A stretch of DNA of 64,000 nt. It comes from Polyangia bacterium. GTDB taxonomy: Bacteria > Myxococcota_A > Polyangia > Polyangiales > JAUICN01. The position numbers and the translations under genes are program-made. The notes beneath the pieces are model-generated. The model made no database searches, was not told where the DNA came from, and worked only from the letters and a program-made list of their open reading frames with translations. Location of the stretch: positions 62,001 to 126,000 of the forward strand of contig JAUICN010000005.1 of the NCBI GenBank assembly GCA_030427835.1. The letters run 5' to 3'. Below, in pieces: positions 35,890 to 41,572 of the stretch. Numbering within the stretch: position 1 is the stretch's first letter; every line of letters starts with the position of its first letter.

Positions 35890-36225
35890 TTAGCCGGCGT
35901 CGGGATGTTCGTCCAGGTAGGCTTGGATGCTTTCGGCGGCGATTTCCACTTCCACTTCCCCGTTTTTCTCCAGCGTGGCCTGGCAACCGAGCCGTGAATT
36001 GTGGCGGGGGTCGAAGGCTTTCTCTAGAATATCCAGCTCCTCGTCTTCGGCTTCCGCTAGAAGCGATTCGCCCTGCCGCACATACACGTGGCAGGTGGAA
36101 CAGGCACATACGCCACCGCAGCGATCCCCCTCGGGAGCGCCCACCTTTTTTGCGGCATCCAGGATGGAAGCTCCGATGGGAATCTCCACTTCTTGATCGG
36201 TGTTGGTAAATCGTACGGTGGGCAT
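35890..36225 (-). CDS. fdx: ISC-type [2Fe-2S] ferredoxin
   Basis: 111-residue adrenodoxin-like ferredoxin that delivers electrons for cluster assembly. Ligands Cys36, Cys42, Cys45 and Cys81 fit C-x5-C-x2-C-x35-C (RCGGVCACSTC ... RLGCQATL). Last gene of the isc operon; its ribosome-binding site AAGGAG overlaps the final codons of hscA, 5 bases before the ATG. Confidence 0.95.
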   Translation of the reverse strand: MPTVRFTNTDQEVEIPIGASILDAAKKVGAPEGDRCGGVCACSTCHVYVRQGESLLAEAEDEELDILEKAFDPRHNSRLGCQATLEKNGEVEVEIAAESIQAYLDEHPDAG

Positions 36226-36227
36226 GG

Positions 36228-38189
36228 CTACTCCTTTGAACTCAATTTCTCCGGGTTCGTATTTGGCGGGGGTGGCAGGTGGGAATCGATTCCGCGGGCG
36301 TCGGCGGTCTGCTCTTCCACATGGCCGACGGACTCTCCCCGTAGGGCACCCGCAATGGCGGCTTCCATGCGGCGACCCGCAAAGGGTTTGCTCACGGCAT
36401 CCAGTTCTTCCAAACGTTGGCGCATGGCCTCCGGATCTTGCCCCTTGAGCGAGACCAGTAGTGCTTGCTTTGCGGTCTGTATGGCGGGTTGCTCGTCGTC
36501 GGTGAGGAGGTGGCCATCAGACCCTAGCGCGCTGTCCAGGGCCGATAGTACGCGCTGTGCCTCCACCCGACGTTGGGCAACAAGGCGCTTTTTCACATCC
36601 TCGTCGCCCCGTTCAAAGGCCTCGGTAAGCATACGTTCCATATCGGTTTCACTTAACCCGTGGCTGGGTTCCACATCCACCTGTTGTGATACCCCCGTGC
36701 GTTGCTCGCTGGCCTGCACGGAAAGCATGCCGCTGCCATCCACCTCGAACACCACCTCCAACCGGGCCATACCCGCCGGCATGGGGGGGATACCGCGAAG
36801 TGTAAATCGAGAGAGGGATCGACAATCTGCCGCAAGCTCTCGCTCGCCCTGGAGCACGTGGAGCTCAAACCCGGTTTGGTTGTCGGCATAGGTGGTAAAC
36901 ACCTGGGCACGGCGGGCTGGAATGGGAGTATTCCGTGGCAAGATATTTTCCACAACTCCACCCATGGTCTCAATGCCCAGGGAAAGTGGCAGCACATCGA
37001 GCAACAATGCGTCGTTGCTTGCCCGGTGGGAATCGCCTGCGCGGTCCGCGAGCATATCGGCCTGTAACGCAGCCCCCATGGCCACCACCAAATCGGGATC
37101 CACGGCGTGCATGGGCGCCTGCCCAAGCTGTTTTTCCAAGCGCGTACGCACGAGCGGGGTTCGGGTGGCACCGCCCACTAGAATCACCCCATCCAGACTT
37201 GGGGCGGCCACGCCCGCATCTTTTAGTGCGGCGTCGCAACTGTTTAGGGTTTGCTCCACAAGCGGCAGGATGGTCGATTCGAACATCTCTCGGGTGATCG
37301 ACGTGGTGTGACTCTCGCTACCCTGGGCACCACTCCGGTCCCAGGTGATCGTTACCTCACCACGATCGGTGAGCTGATGTTTGGCCTCGCGACACTGGGT
37401 ATGGAGCCGCACCTGTTCTTGAGGCGTAAGCTCGCTGAGAGCCGTGTCCTGCTGCTGGAGAACCATGGACACAAGGGCCCGGTCCATGTCATCTCCGCCC
37501 AGCTGGGAATCGCCGCCGGTGGATTTCACCTGGAACACCCCATCGTCCAGAATGAGTACGGTGACGTCAAAGGTGCCACCACCTAGATCGTAGACGAGAA
37601 AGGTACCGTCCTTTTTTTCTGCCAGCCCGTAGGCCAGGGCCGCAGCGGTGGGTTCGTTGAGAAGGCTGAGCACTTCCAAACCTGCGAGCTGGGCTGCATC
37701 CCGGGTGGCCTGGCGTTGTGCATCATCAAAGTAGGCGGGCACGGTGATCACGGCAGGCCCCACCCCGCCCAACTCATCCAGCGCCCGGTTCTTCATTTCC
37801 CGAAGAATGTCGGCGCTGACTTCCACCGGCGTGATTTGACGGCCATCCCCTAGGACAACCTTTACGAATCTCGTCTCCGTCCCATCCAGTCGGTAGGATC
37901 CTGTCAGGTGTTGTACCTCAGCGGCGCTTTTCCCCATCCAGCGTTTCACGCTGCGCAGGGTCTCCTGGGGAGCCTCATCGCTTTTTAGGAGTGCAGGCTC
38001 ACCGACCAAAACGTTTCCGTCTGGGGCATAGTGCACGACCGACGGTACAAGGGTTTTCCCATCACAATCGGCAATGGCTACAGGCTGGCCAACGGGAGGC
38101 ACCCAGGAGACCACGCTATGTGTGGTGCCCAGATCAATGCCGATGGGAGAAGGGGCGGCAGCGGGATCGTGAATGTGGAGAAGGGCCAT
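36228..38189 (-). CDS. hscA: Fe-S assembly Hsp70 chaperone HscA
   Basis: 653-residue specialised Hsp70 that releases the cluster from IscU. The ATPase domain is complete: [60 protein letters not shown] and [13 protein letters not shown]. The substrate-binding part contains [12 protein letters not shown]. Its IscU docking motif LPPVK is kept in the neighbouring iscU gene. hscB ends 4 bases upstream; that J-protein lacks HPD (see findings), which raises the question of how this ATPase is stimulated. Confidence 0.95.
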
Positions 38190-38193
38190 GGGT

Positions 38194-38748
38194 CTAGGGG
38201 GATCCGGGGGTTGAAGAGGGGGTGGTTGGGGGCGCCATGGCGCGCTTGGCTTCTTCCGCGAGACGACGCAGGTACTTCCAATGGGCGTGCCGTTGTAGCA
38301 GACCCGGGTCGACGCTTGTTGCTGACTCTCTCGCGCCCTGTGGAACGGAAAGAGACGCGTTCAATTCCTGGGCAAGTTGTTGTTCCATCTCCAGGGCTTT
38401 CCCGCTCAACCGGGTGGACAACTGTTCAAGGGGGGCCTTGTCTTCCGTGGCAGACAGGGACTCCAGCTCTTCCTTGATTTCCATCATTTCAAAGAGAAAA
38501 TCCTGATCGGGGGGCGTTTCCATTTCGGTGCCTCCACCCAATAGGGATTCCAACGCCCAGTGGTACCGCGCAGGAATATCCTTAAGCGTTCGATAGGCAT
38601 GGTTGAGTCGCGCCTGCTCCTGGTCGCGATTTCTTGTGTCGGAACTCCGGTGTAGGGATCGCTGGGCTGCGCGGTAGGCGCGGTCCAGGTCCGCGATGGC
38701 AATGGTTAGGTCTGGACGAATGCCCAGTTGCTCAAAGGGGTTGTTCAT
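38194..38748 (-). CDS. hscB: HscB-like co-chaperone with degenerate J domain (HPD lost)
   Basis: 184-residue J-domain protein. The N-terminal J-like region ([20 protein letters not shown]) and the C-terminal IscU-binding helices ([20 protein letters not shown], and [16 protein letters not shown]) align with HscB in length and order. Where HscB has the invariant HPD loop, the DNA reads L-H-R-S-S-D (His33-Arg34-Ser35), so Pro and Asp of HPD are both replaced. HPD is required in known J proteins to trigger Hsp70 ATP hydrolysis. Operon position iscA-hscB-hscA is normal. The C-tail is Pro/Thr/Ser-rich. Confidence 0.85.
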
Positions 38749-38768: not shown

Positions 38769-39185
38769 TCAGACGATGAAGGATTCACCACAACCGCAAC
38801 CGCCCTTTTCATTGGGGTTCACAAACTTAAAGCCATGACCCATGAGTTTCACTTCGTAGTCCAGGGTGGATCCTCGTAGGAAAACCAGGCTCTTGGGATC
38901 CACAAGCACACGCAGATCCCCAAACTCGAAGACAAGGTCTCTGGTGCGTAACTTGTCTGAGAACTCGATGGCATAGGCCAAACCCGAGCAACCTCCCCCT
39001 CGCACGCCCAACCGCAGGTACGCTTCTGGGGTACCCCTGCGCACGAGTGCCTTTTTTGCCATCTCCACCGCCTTGGGTGTGAGCTGGATCTCGGGTGTAC
39101 CCTCCTCCACTGGAGGTGCCGGGGATAGGCCTTCAGGCTTGTTGGAGCCCGTGGCATCGCTGGGGTGTTCTGAGGCGGTTTGCAT
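38769..39185 (-). CDS. iscA: A-type Fe-S carrier (IscA family)
   Basis: 138 residues: an unusual ~28-residue Ser/Pro/Glu-rich leader, then the A-type carrier fold. The three conserved cysteines are present: Cys66 (GGGCSGLAY) and Cys130/Cys132 (GGCGCGESF). It accepts clusters from IscU and passes them to targets. Lies between iscU and hscB as in the classical isc operon; 20 bases before hscB. Confidence 0.93.
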   Translation of the reverse strand: MQTASEHPSDATGSNKPEGLSPAPPVEEGTPEIQLTPKAVEMAKKALVRRGTPEAYLRLGVRGGGCSGLAYAIEFSDKLRTRDLVFEFGDLRVLVDPKSLVFLRGSTLDYEVKLMGHGFKFVNPNEKGGCGCGESFIV

Positions 39186-39254: not shown

Positions 39255-39647
39255 TTACTCTGGGGCGTTCTGCTTTTTTCGGTAGTCGGCAATGGCGCTT
39301 TTTATGGCATCCTCTGCCAGTACGGAACAGTGAATCTTCACCGGTGGGAGATTCAACTCCTCCACGATGGCTGTGTTTTTCAGGGCGCCGGCCTCTTCGA
39401 TGGTTTTTCCGCGAATCCATTCCGTCGCCAGGGACGAGGATGCGATGGCGCTTCCACATCCAAAGGTCTTGAACTTGGCATCTTCGATCACCTGGGTCTC
39501 GGGATTGACCTTGATCTGCAACCGCATGACGTCACCACAGGCCGGGGCGCCCACCAGGCCGGTGCCCACTTCGGCGCTTGCCTTGTCCAGGGTGCCCACG
39601 TTGCGTGGCTTTTCGTAATGTTCGATGAGTTTTTCAGAGTAGGCCAT
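39255..39647 (-). CDS. iscU: Fe-S cluster scaffold IscU
   Basis: 130-residue scaffold on which [2Fe-2S] clusters form. Ligands Cys37, Asp39, Cys64, His106 and Cys107 are all present (APACGDVM, FGCGSAIASSS, KIHCSVLAEDA). The HscA recognition motif LPPVK is intact at 100-104. It follows iscS by 12 bases. Confidence 0.97.
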   Translation of the reverse strand: MAYSEKLIEHYEKPRNVGTLDKASAEVGTGLVGAPACGDVMRLQIKVNPETQVIEDAKFKTFGCGSAIASSSLATEWIRGKTIEEAGALKNTAIVEELNLPPVKIHCSVLAEDAIKSAIADYRKKQNAPE

Positions 39648-39659
39648 GATGTTTTCTTT

Positions 39660-40886
39660 CTAGTGCGCTTCCCATTGGATGGATTTGAGGTCGATGCCTT
39701 CTTTGTGCATTTCGTACAAGGGCGACAATTCCCGGAGTCGGTGAACCTGCTCGATGACCAGATCCGCCACGTAGTCTACTTCCTCTTCCGTGTTGAACCT
39801 TCCCAGGCCAAAACGGATGGAGGTGTGGGCAAGCTCCTCGTCCACACCGAGGGAACGAAGGACGTAGCTGGGCTCAAGGCTTGCACTGGTGCAGGCGCTT
39901 CCAGAGGAGACGGCTACCTCCTTGATAGCCATCATCATGGCTTCCCCTTCCACGAAGGCGAAGGAGACGTTGAGGTTTCCTGGGTGGCGCCAGGGATCGT
40001 CGCTTCCGTTCAGAAAGATCTCATCCAGGTTGTCCCACAGCTTCTTGCGAAGTCGATCCCGCAGGCTACGGGTGTGCTGGATATCTTTTTCGCCCTCGTC
40101 GATAAAAATTTGAGCCGCTGCACCCATGCCGACAATGCCGGTGACGTTGAGGGTGCCGGAACGCATGCCCCGCTCGTGGCCGCCGCCGTCCATTTCTGCA
40201 GCGAGGCGAACGCGTGGCTTGGAGCGACGCACGTACAGGGCACCCACACCCTTGGGGCCGTACATCTTGTGACCGCTCATGCTCGCAAGGTCGATATTCA
40301 TGCGCTCCACATCAAAGTCCATGCGGCCCACGCCTTGCACCGCGTCGCAGTGGAGAAATACACCCCTGTCTCGGGTGATGGCTCCGATTTCTTCCATGCG
40401 TTGCACGGTACCCACCTCATTGTTGGCGAGCATGATGCTTACCAGGATGGTTTTGTCCGTGATGGCCCGCTTGAGATCCTCCGGATCCACCTGGCCCTCG
40501 TTGTTGGTGGGCAAATAGGTGACCTCAAAGCCCTCTTTTTCGAGGCGCTTGCAGGGATCAAGTACCGCCTTGTGTTCCGTGAGGCACGTGATGATGTGGT
40601 TGCCCTTGGTCTTAAGGAAGCGCGCCACGCCCTTGATGGCCAAGTTGTCGCTCTCCGTGGCACCCGAGGTGAAAATGATTTCCTTGGGGCTGTTGGCACC
40701 GATCAGGGTGGCGATTTGCCCCCGTGCTTTTTCAACCGCCTCTTCGCCCTTCCACCCGAAGGCATGGTTGCGGCTTGCAGCGTTTCCAAAATTTTCTGTG
40801 AAGTAGGGCAACATGGCCTGCACCACCCTGGGGTCACAGGGGGTGGTTGCGTTGTTGTCCATGTAGATGGGTGTGCGGATAGTCAT
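39660..40886 (-). CDS. iscS: Cysteine desulfurase IscS
   Basis: 408-residue PLP enzyme that takes sulfur from cysteine for Fe-S clusters and tRNA thiolation. PLP Lys207 lies in [16 protein letters not shown]; the mobile persulfide loop [20 protein letters not shown] carries Cys332; [11 protein letters not shown] precedes. The long active-site loop and terminal region are group I (IscS) rather than SufS. 56 bases after the MerR-type gene that heads the operon. Confidence 0.97.
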
Positions 40887-40942: not shown

Positions 40943-41572
40943 TTAGGTATTGTGTAGACCGGCCACAAGGGAAGGTGTATGCCCGTTCTTCTGGGAAGGA
41001 TCTCGACGTTCACAGGAATGGCAGGCATCCAGGGGCGTGTGACGGCTTTCGCACTGACCACAGAGCTCCAGGTACCGGAGGCTCTCTTCCAACTCCCCTT
41101 CTAGCGTCGCCAATGCAGTTCTTTGTTTGCGGGTTTCTGCAAGCTTGGTTTGAAATCGCTCACGGACCTTTGCCATGGCCTCGGGCCCGGTCGCACTCTG
41201 GTTCCATTCGCCGAGGATCTCCCGGATCTCAGGCAGGGAACAGCCCAGGGCCTGGAGTTTTGCGATCCAACGAACCCGGTGGATCGCCTCCTCGTTGTAC
41301 AGGCGATAGCCTGCGGCCGATCGGCTCACGGGTGACAACAGCTGCATTTCCTCGTACAGTCGCAGGGCCCGCACGGAACGACCGGTGCGCTTGGCCAGGG
41401 CCCCCACGCGAATGGGTCCCACGCGAACCGGTGTGGAGCCCCCCTGAACCACCGCACCGCCCTTGAAGGATGTACAGGTGACAGGCCGATCCGTTGCTGG
41501 CCGATCCGCTGCTGGCCGATCGGTTGAGGGATGGCAAGACGGGCTGATTTTTAGTTTGGCAGAGGAGTGCAT
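40943..41572 (-). CDS. MerR-family regulator heading the isc operon
   Basis: 209-residue regulator from ATG 41572. The winged HTH (about 54-120) reads RVGALAKRTGRSVRALRLYE, then GYRLYNEEAIHRVRWIAKLQ; a coiled-coil helix follows (125-170), then CGQCESRHTPLDACHSC, a C-x2-C-x9-C-x2-C cluster (Cys171, 174, 184, 187) suited to binding a metal or Fe-S cluster. It occupies the position of iscR. The first ~50 residues, including a 15-base triple repeat (DRPAADRPATDRP), precede the HTH and may be untranslated if GTG 41422 is the start. Regulation of isc is inference from position. Confidence 0.85.
   Translation of the reverse strand: MHSSAKLKISPSCHPSTDRPAADRPATDRPVTCTSFKGGAVVQGGSTPVRVGPIRVGALAKRTGRSVRALRLYEEMQLLSPVSRSAAGYRLYNEEAIHRVRWIAKLQALGCSLPEIREILGEWNQSATGPEAMAKVRERFQTKLAETRKQRTALATLEGELEESLRYLELCGQCESRHTPLDACHSCERRDPSQKNGHTPSLVAGLHNT
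41484..41528 (-). repeat. 15-bp tandem repeat, 3 copies, at the 5' end of the MerR gene
   Basis: Units ggccgatccgttgct, ggccgatccgctgct and ggccgatcggttgag are consecutive and would encode DRPATDRP-type repeats if the long start is used. Confidence 0.85.

Follow-up and report, generated by a model that had tools for sequence, protein, structure and literature searches.

An HscB without the HPD motif beside an HscA without the matching arginine in the isc operon of a Polyangia bacterium

The HPD motif is generally regarded as necessary for every J protein. In the isc operon of a Polyangia bacterium (GenBank assembly GCA_030427835.1) the J protein HscB lacks this motif, which raises the question of whether HscB is simply broken or whether its Hsp70 partner HscA has changed with it. 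The locus was analysed within a stretch of 64,000 nucleotides (contig JAUICN010000005.1, positions 62,001 to 126,000), hereafter called the window.

The hscB gene and its operon

The operon is transcribed in the order MerR-type regulator, iscS, iscU, iscA, hscB, hscA and fdx (Table 1). As the initial annotation had claimed, it is otherwise complete, with all six isc-type genes from iscS to fdx present and with LPPVK retained in IscU. Many bacterial isc operons carry IscR upstream of iscS, where the MerR-family gene stands here. The genome, a draft of 30 contigs (3.3 Mb; 98% complete, 0% contamination), is smaller than those of most relatives in the order. SufB and SufD were not found in it by a search that succeeded in all 14 control genomes. 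With no SUF system detected, Fe-S clusters are apparently assembled mainly by ISC, and loss of ISC function should therefore be costly.

Table 1. Features of the isc locus, with positions in the window
Feature	Position	Strand	Evidence or remark
MerR-family regulator, directly upstream of iscS	40943..41572	minus	profile matches
iscS, cysteine desulfurase	39660..40886	minus	profile matches
iscU	39255..39647	minus	TIGR01999 over cut-off
LPPVK of IscU, kept	39336..39350	minus	
iscA-type A-carrier	38769..39185	minus	profile matches
hscB	38194..38748	minus	184 aa; J-domain without HPD and HSCB_C domain
L32-H33-R34-S35-S36-D37 of HscB, replacing LHPD	38638..38655	minus	codon reading
HscB residues 82-99, IscU-binding segment, largely conserved	38452..38505	minus	alignments
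hscA, Hsp70	36228..38189	minus	653 aa; NCBIfam HscA TIGR01991, 743.7 bits (cut-off 708.55)
HscA Ser175 (codon AGC), E. coli DnaK Arg167 position	37665..37667	minus	alignment
HscA Asp398, DnaK D393 position (linker), kept	36996..36998	minus	alignment
HscA Ser486, DnaK Asp481 position (second R167 partner)	36732..36734	minus	alignment; weak evidence
fdx, ISC-type [2Fe-2S] ferredoxin	35890..36225	minus	profile matches

The open reading frame of hscB is real but lies on the minus strand, and the absence of HPD from its product was confirmed. Codons 32–37 read CTA CAC CGG AGT TCC GAC (window positions 38655 down to 38638), as had been noted before, so that His33 is kept while Pro and Asp are gone. 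In an ungapped alignment Pro34 is replaced by Arg and position 35 is Ser; in a MAFFT alignment a gap of seven residues directly follows the His, and HPD is absent under either. The C-terminal domain is recognised by Pfam HSCB_C (PF07743; 31.1 bits, cut-off 22.1). The Pfam DnaJ match to residues 4–61 stays under its cut-off (13.6 bits against 27.8), as does the full-length match to the hscB equivalog model TIGR00714 (34.8 bits against 46.75). By its sequence HscB is thus a divergent member of its family with a divergent J-domain; its orthology is clear from context (the gene sits between iscA and hscA), C-terminal domain and predicted fold. Where canonical class C J-domain proteins have HPD, it reads H33-R34-S35, and with a recognisable J-domain and a non-conservative replacement of the motif it falls under the definition of type IV (HPD-altered) J-domains (PMC13254874).

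The basic helix-II residues R23, R26 and R30 are kept, and so, largely, are residues 82-99, whose IscU-binding role we assume from E. coli HscB. An AlphaFold2 model (pLDDT 93; helix II 18–33, helix III 38–56) has the J hairpin and the three-helix C-terminal bundle of HscB, although the prediction was guided by 18 HPD-bearing relatives, would tend towards this fold and shows compatibility, not activity. Its best Foldseek matches are the HscB structures of Vibrio cholerae and E. coli (4it5 and 1fpo). The base composition of hscB by codon position resembles that of the neighbouring isc genes. Since the frame is open, the predicted J fold intact and the IscU-binding segment kept, hscB is not a plain pseudogene.

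For comparison, 118 hscB loci were fetched from 107 genomes of other families of the same order. HPD is present in all 118 loci and all 107 genomes, mostly as HPDR or HPDK. Of the refuting case named in the initial annotation, relatives with an intact motif and a pseudogene in this strain, the first half is therefore borne out, but the second is not, as far as simple decay goes, given the state of the gene described above. Two of these relatives (L015, L016) share the shortened loop of the window HscB (His to conserved Asn, 17 residues) yet keep HPD; the motif can therefore persist in a shortened loop. A scan of genome contigs with the window HscB for close relatives returned only two distant Bacteroidota matches. 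In the class of the phylum to which G184 belongs, 91 genomes gave one weak match and no convincing HscB, so that this class added nothing to the comparison.

The partner HscA and its missing arginine

In the DnaK–DnaJ complex the Asp of HPD pairs with Arg167 of DnaK; when not engaged in this way, Arg167 holds the NBD to the SBD through Asp481 and to the linker through Asp393 (PMC7289447). This arginine is 100% conserved in 1560 DnaK, 404 mitochondrial, 586 cytosolic and 334 ER Hsp70 sequences (PMC7289447, its Table 1). In the window HscA the R-NBD residue is Ser175, while the linker LLLD and T199 are kept. Apart from scoring above the cut-off of the curated HscA model, the protein lies inside the HscA clade of a maximum-likelihood tree (support 100/100). 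By sequence and context it is HscA, though one that differs at a residue otherwise invariant among Hsp70s.

Arg was found at the R167-equivalent in all 116 readable same-order HscA loci (about 105 genomes), as well as in E. coli HscA, E. coli DnaK and the DnaK of the same genome. A DNA pattern for Ser coded AGY in an HscA-like context matched this genome only. At 191 columns conserved to at least 95% in 104 distinct relatives, the window HscA departs nine times (median of the relatives, two), and most of its departures at conserved columns are conservative. When the columns are restricted to the 87 that E. coli HscA and E. coli DnaK share with the relatives, two departures are left, A28S and R175S. 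The chance that random departures include the HPD partner is about 2/87 to 9/191, or 2–5%, which is suggestive and not proof by itself.

The position of DnaK Asp481 was also considered. The idea that its loss completes that of a full R167 triad was dropped as support: the window HscA has Ser486, but this column varies among relatives (D 59, N 13, S 1), the DnaK of the same genome has Asn here, and the HPX-paired paralogues described below mostly keep Asp.

These changes could reflect relaxed selection or early decay, with the HscB–HscA step becoming dispensable in a small genome and both genes drifting. The modest genome size and the nine departures speak for this, and so does the branch of the window HscA (0.78), the longest among the HscAs compared, whose fit to general relaxation counts to that extent against co-adaptation of the two proteins. 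We nevertheless consider decay improbable: both frames are open, HscA exceeds its curated cut-off, the coding composition is like that of the adjoining isc genes, the departures of HscA are mostly conservative, and no SUF back-up was found.

An assembly or sequencing error, to which a draft genome is open, is even harder to credit and can be given very little weight. A frameshift does not bring the motif back, as HPD was found in neither of the two other frames of hscB; one added C yields HPE, after which the translation departs from the conserved frame. In addition, the differences lie in two separate genes and concern two residues that are known contact partners.

Another J protein of the cell might serve HscA instead. 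The search for such proteins proposed in the initial annotation was run and returned three with HPD encoded in the genome (L001–L003). However, HscA is without the Arg on which HPD acts, so that an ordinary J protein with HPD is unlikely to rescue it; HscA of E. coli has the Arg and is still functionally insulated from DnaJ (PMC9596805). We regard such help as highly improbable.

Three further proteins of the genome have J-like or Hsp70-like domains. One is a ParA/MinD-like ATPase with an HTH_25 domain and a J-domain that has APD for HPD (L004, C27:34593-34793). The second, a 562-residue open reading frame with a weak response-regulator match, ends in a C-terminal J-like domain without HPD (L185:5851-7536, C12). 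The third, an NBD-only Hsp70-like protein (L184:5491-6744, C15), is 418 aa long, and in it position 167 is Gly and position 199 Ser; no J gene was found within about 5 kb of it.

Matched J/Hsp70 pairs elsewhere in the phylum

Of 379 genomes of the phylum, 83 matched a DNA pattern for Hsp70s with a non-Arg codon 167. Among 30 such loci that were fetched, no HscA beside HscB was seen. Neighbouring genes were read at 38 non-Arg167 Hsp70 loci, and the following combinations were found in adjoining genes for a J protein and a DnaK paralogue: (i) A167 with HPN (G088, G441); (ii) A167 with HPA (G435, G424, G251, G490); (iii) S167 with HPS (G218); (iv) H167 with HPH (G015, G008); (v) K167 with HPD (G191, G186). 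Hence, where the positive residue was lost, Asp was lost in nine of nine adjacent pairs, and where Lys was kept, Asp was kept in two of two. In a maximum-likelihood tree the nine Asp-less pairs group together (98/99), apart from the clade of the Lys pairs, so that they stand for a single original loss followed by later changes. The loss in the window HscB and HscA, judged by the place of HscA in this tree, happened independently in another Hsp70 family.

The pairs with HPN, HPA, HPS or HPH (L163–L167, L170–L172, L187) resemble the window pair in matching a non-Arg167 with an altered motif; they differ in that their Hsp70s are DnaK paralogues outside ISC, in some cases next to J proteins with PilZ or TPR domains, and in that Pro34 is kept. 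The PilZ and TPR domains are weak matches, and the PilZ-bearing pairs recall the PilZ-DnaK chaperones CsdK1/2 of Myxococcus xanthus (PMC10313047). In E. coli, DjlB/DjlC–HscC (HPE) is likewise a divergent, dedicated pair with an altered HPD; unlike in the window pair, however, an acid is retained in DjlC and Arg in HscC.

A group of tandem divergent Hsp70-like genes was also seen (L177-L181, L192-L194, L196-L201, L203), mostly with Lys or Ser167 and an altered linker. Several of these tandem pairs precede a large protein with a J-like domain, mostly without HPD. They were rejected as support, since some have Lys beside an HPD-less J-like domain and the assignment of partners is ambiguous. Three members break the matching in this way (L197, L198, L203), and L190, with Gln167 and a PPD J-like gene nearby, is a possible exception; both count against co-adaptation of HscB and HscA.

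How the window pair may work

The initial annotation had offered three options, namely an HscA independent of J stimulation, help from another J protein, or an HscB that serves only as IscU escort. This interpretation is borne out in part: the first and third are possible and the second is unlikely. It missed the loss of Arg from HscA. With this a fourth option arises, and it is the best supported one: motif and partner have changed in concert.

Both partners of the Arg–Asp contact are replaced, and sequence comparison indicates that the remaining docking and client surfaces are largely kept. This looks like a joint change in HscB and HscA rather than plain damage to one of them. We think it slightly better than an even bet that the two proteins are a co-adapted chaperone pair whose Arg(Hsp70)–Asp(HPD) switch has given way to a neutral contact. 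This reading is favoured because, among the same-order HscBs and HscAs compared, the two losses occur only here (HPD lost in 0 of 107 related genomes, Arg in 0 of 116 loci), because R175S is one of just two departures at the 87 columns, and because precedents exist in the matched 167/HPX pairs and in E. coli suppressor pairs. HscB would still bring IscU to HscA-ATP, docking via helix II. Without Arg the NBD–SBD latch of HscA would be weaker, and with no Arg locking NBD to SBD, no Asp would be needed to pull it off. A neutral S/S contact, together with a His33–linker or steric contact, might then trigger hydrolysis by HscA. As a side effect, HscA would be insulated from the HPD-bearing J proteins of the cell. 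Against co-adaptation stand, besides the points already given, that it is seen in one draft genome compared with other families of the order, that Pro34 of HscB is lost as well, unlike in the HPX paralogues, and that the nine precedent pairs form one clade with one ancestral loss.

Alternatively, IscU with its LPPVK alone could drive the ATPase cycle of a J-independent HscA, which loss of Arg would unlatch, raising its basal ATPase; HscB would then just bind, order and protect IscU, its J hairpin being a structural remnant. Retention of the IscU-binding segment while HPD including Pro34 is gone fits such a role, as does the Ser at the D481-equivalent of HscA. DnaK R167D combines somewhat raised basal ATPase with poor stimulation by DnaJ (PMC7289447), and IscU is stabilised by HscB/Hsc20 without Hsp70 (PMC9596805). 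However, HscB retains His33, its basic residues in helix II and the J hairpin, and the paralogue pairs still show a recognisable matched contact, suggesting that the contact still matters. A pure escort role is accordingly a serious possibility that we nonetheless consider rather doubtful.

Laboratory work shows that the contact can be altered on both sides. HPN in a J protein abolishes stimulation in E. coli (PMC13254874), while DnaK R167H suppresses DnaJ D35N (PMC5519331) and DnaK R167A with DnaJ D35N is functional in vivo and in vitro (PMC13012618). As in the window, Arg and Asp give way in these pairs to uncharged or weakly charged residues, there with function kept (PMC13012618, PMC5519331); yet they are laboratory mutants of DnaK and DnaJ with Pro34 kept, whereas the window holds a natural HscA and HscB with Pro34 lost. 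Moreover, a J-domain with HPD changed to AAA is not fully inactive in some systems (PMC13012618), and Hsc70 is stimulated by a designed J-domain analogue without HPD (PMC13254874).

With the HscB/Hsc20 (Jac1)–HscA (Ssq1) system of ISC the window pair shares operon, domain order, fold, IscU-binding segment and the LPPVK of IscU; it differs in an HscB without HPD and an HscA without the R167-equivalent. The type IV ('pseudo') J proteins Pam16 and DNAJB13 likewise combine a recognisable J fold with a non-conservative replacement of HPD (PMC13254874), but in the window the adjacent Hsp70 has lost the matching Arg, which is not mentioned for them in PMC13254874. HPD-altered type IV J proteins and a laboratory suppressor pair are thus already known; no report was found in the open-access literature of a natural system in which the Asp of HPD and the Arg of its Hsp70 are lost together. 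That the Arg–Asp switch was jointly replaced in nature with the cycle still working, at least twice in the phylum (once in HscB/HscA and once in the clade of J/DnaK-paralogue pairs), yielding orthogonal, insulated pairs, is a tentative proposal to which we give somewhat less than even credence.

The Arg–Asp contact is invisible to covariation methods where both sides are invariant. Matched natural losses would place some HPD-less J proteins in altered pairs instead of among the dead, and open the matter to direct test. They also suggest a rule for predicting partners, to be read from residue 167 of the neighbouring Hsp70.
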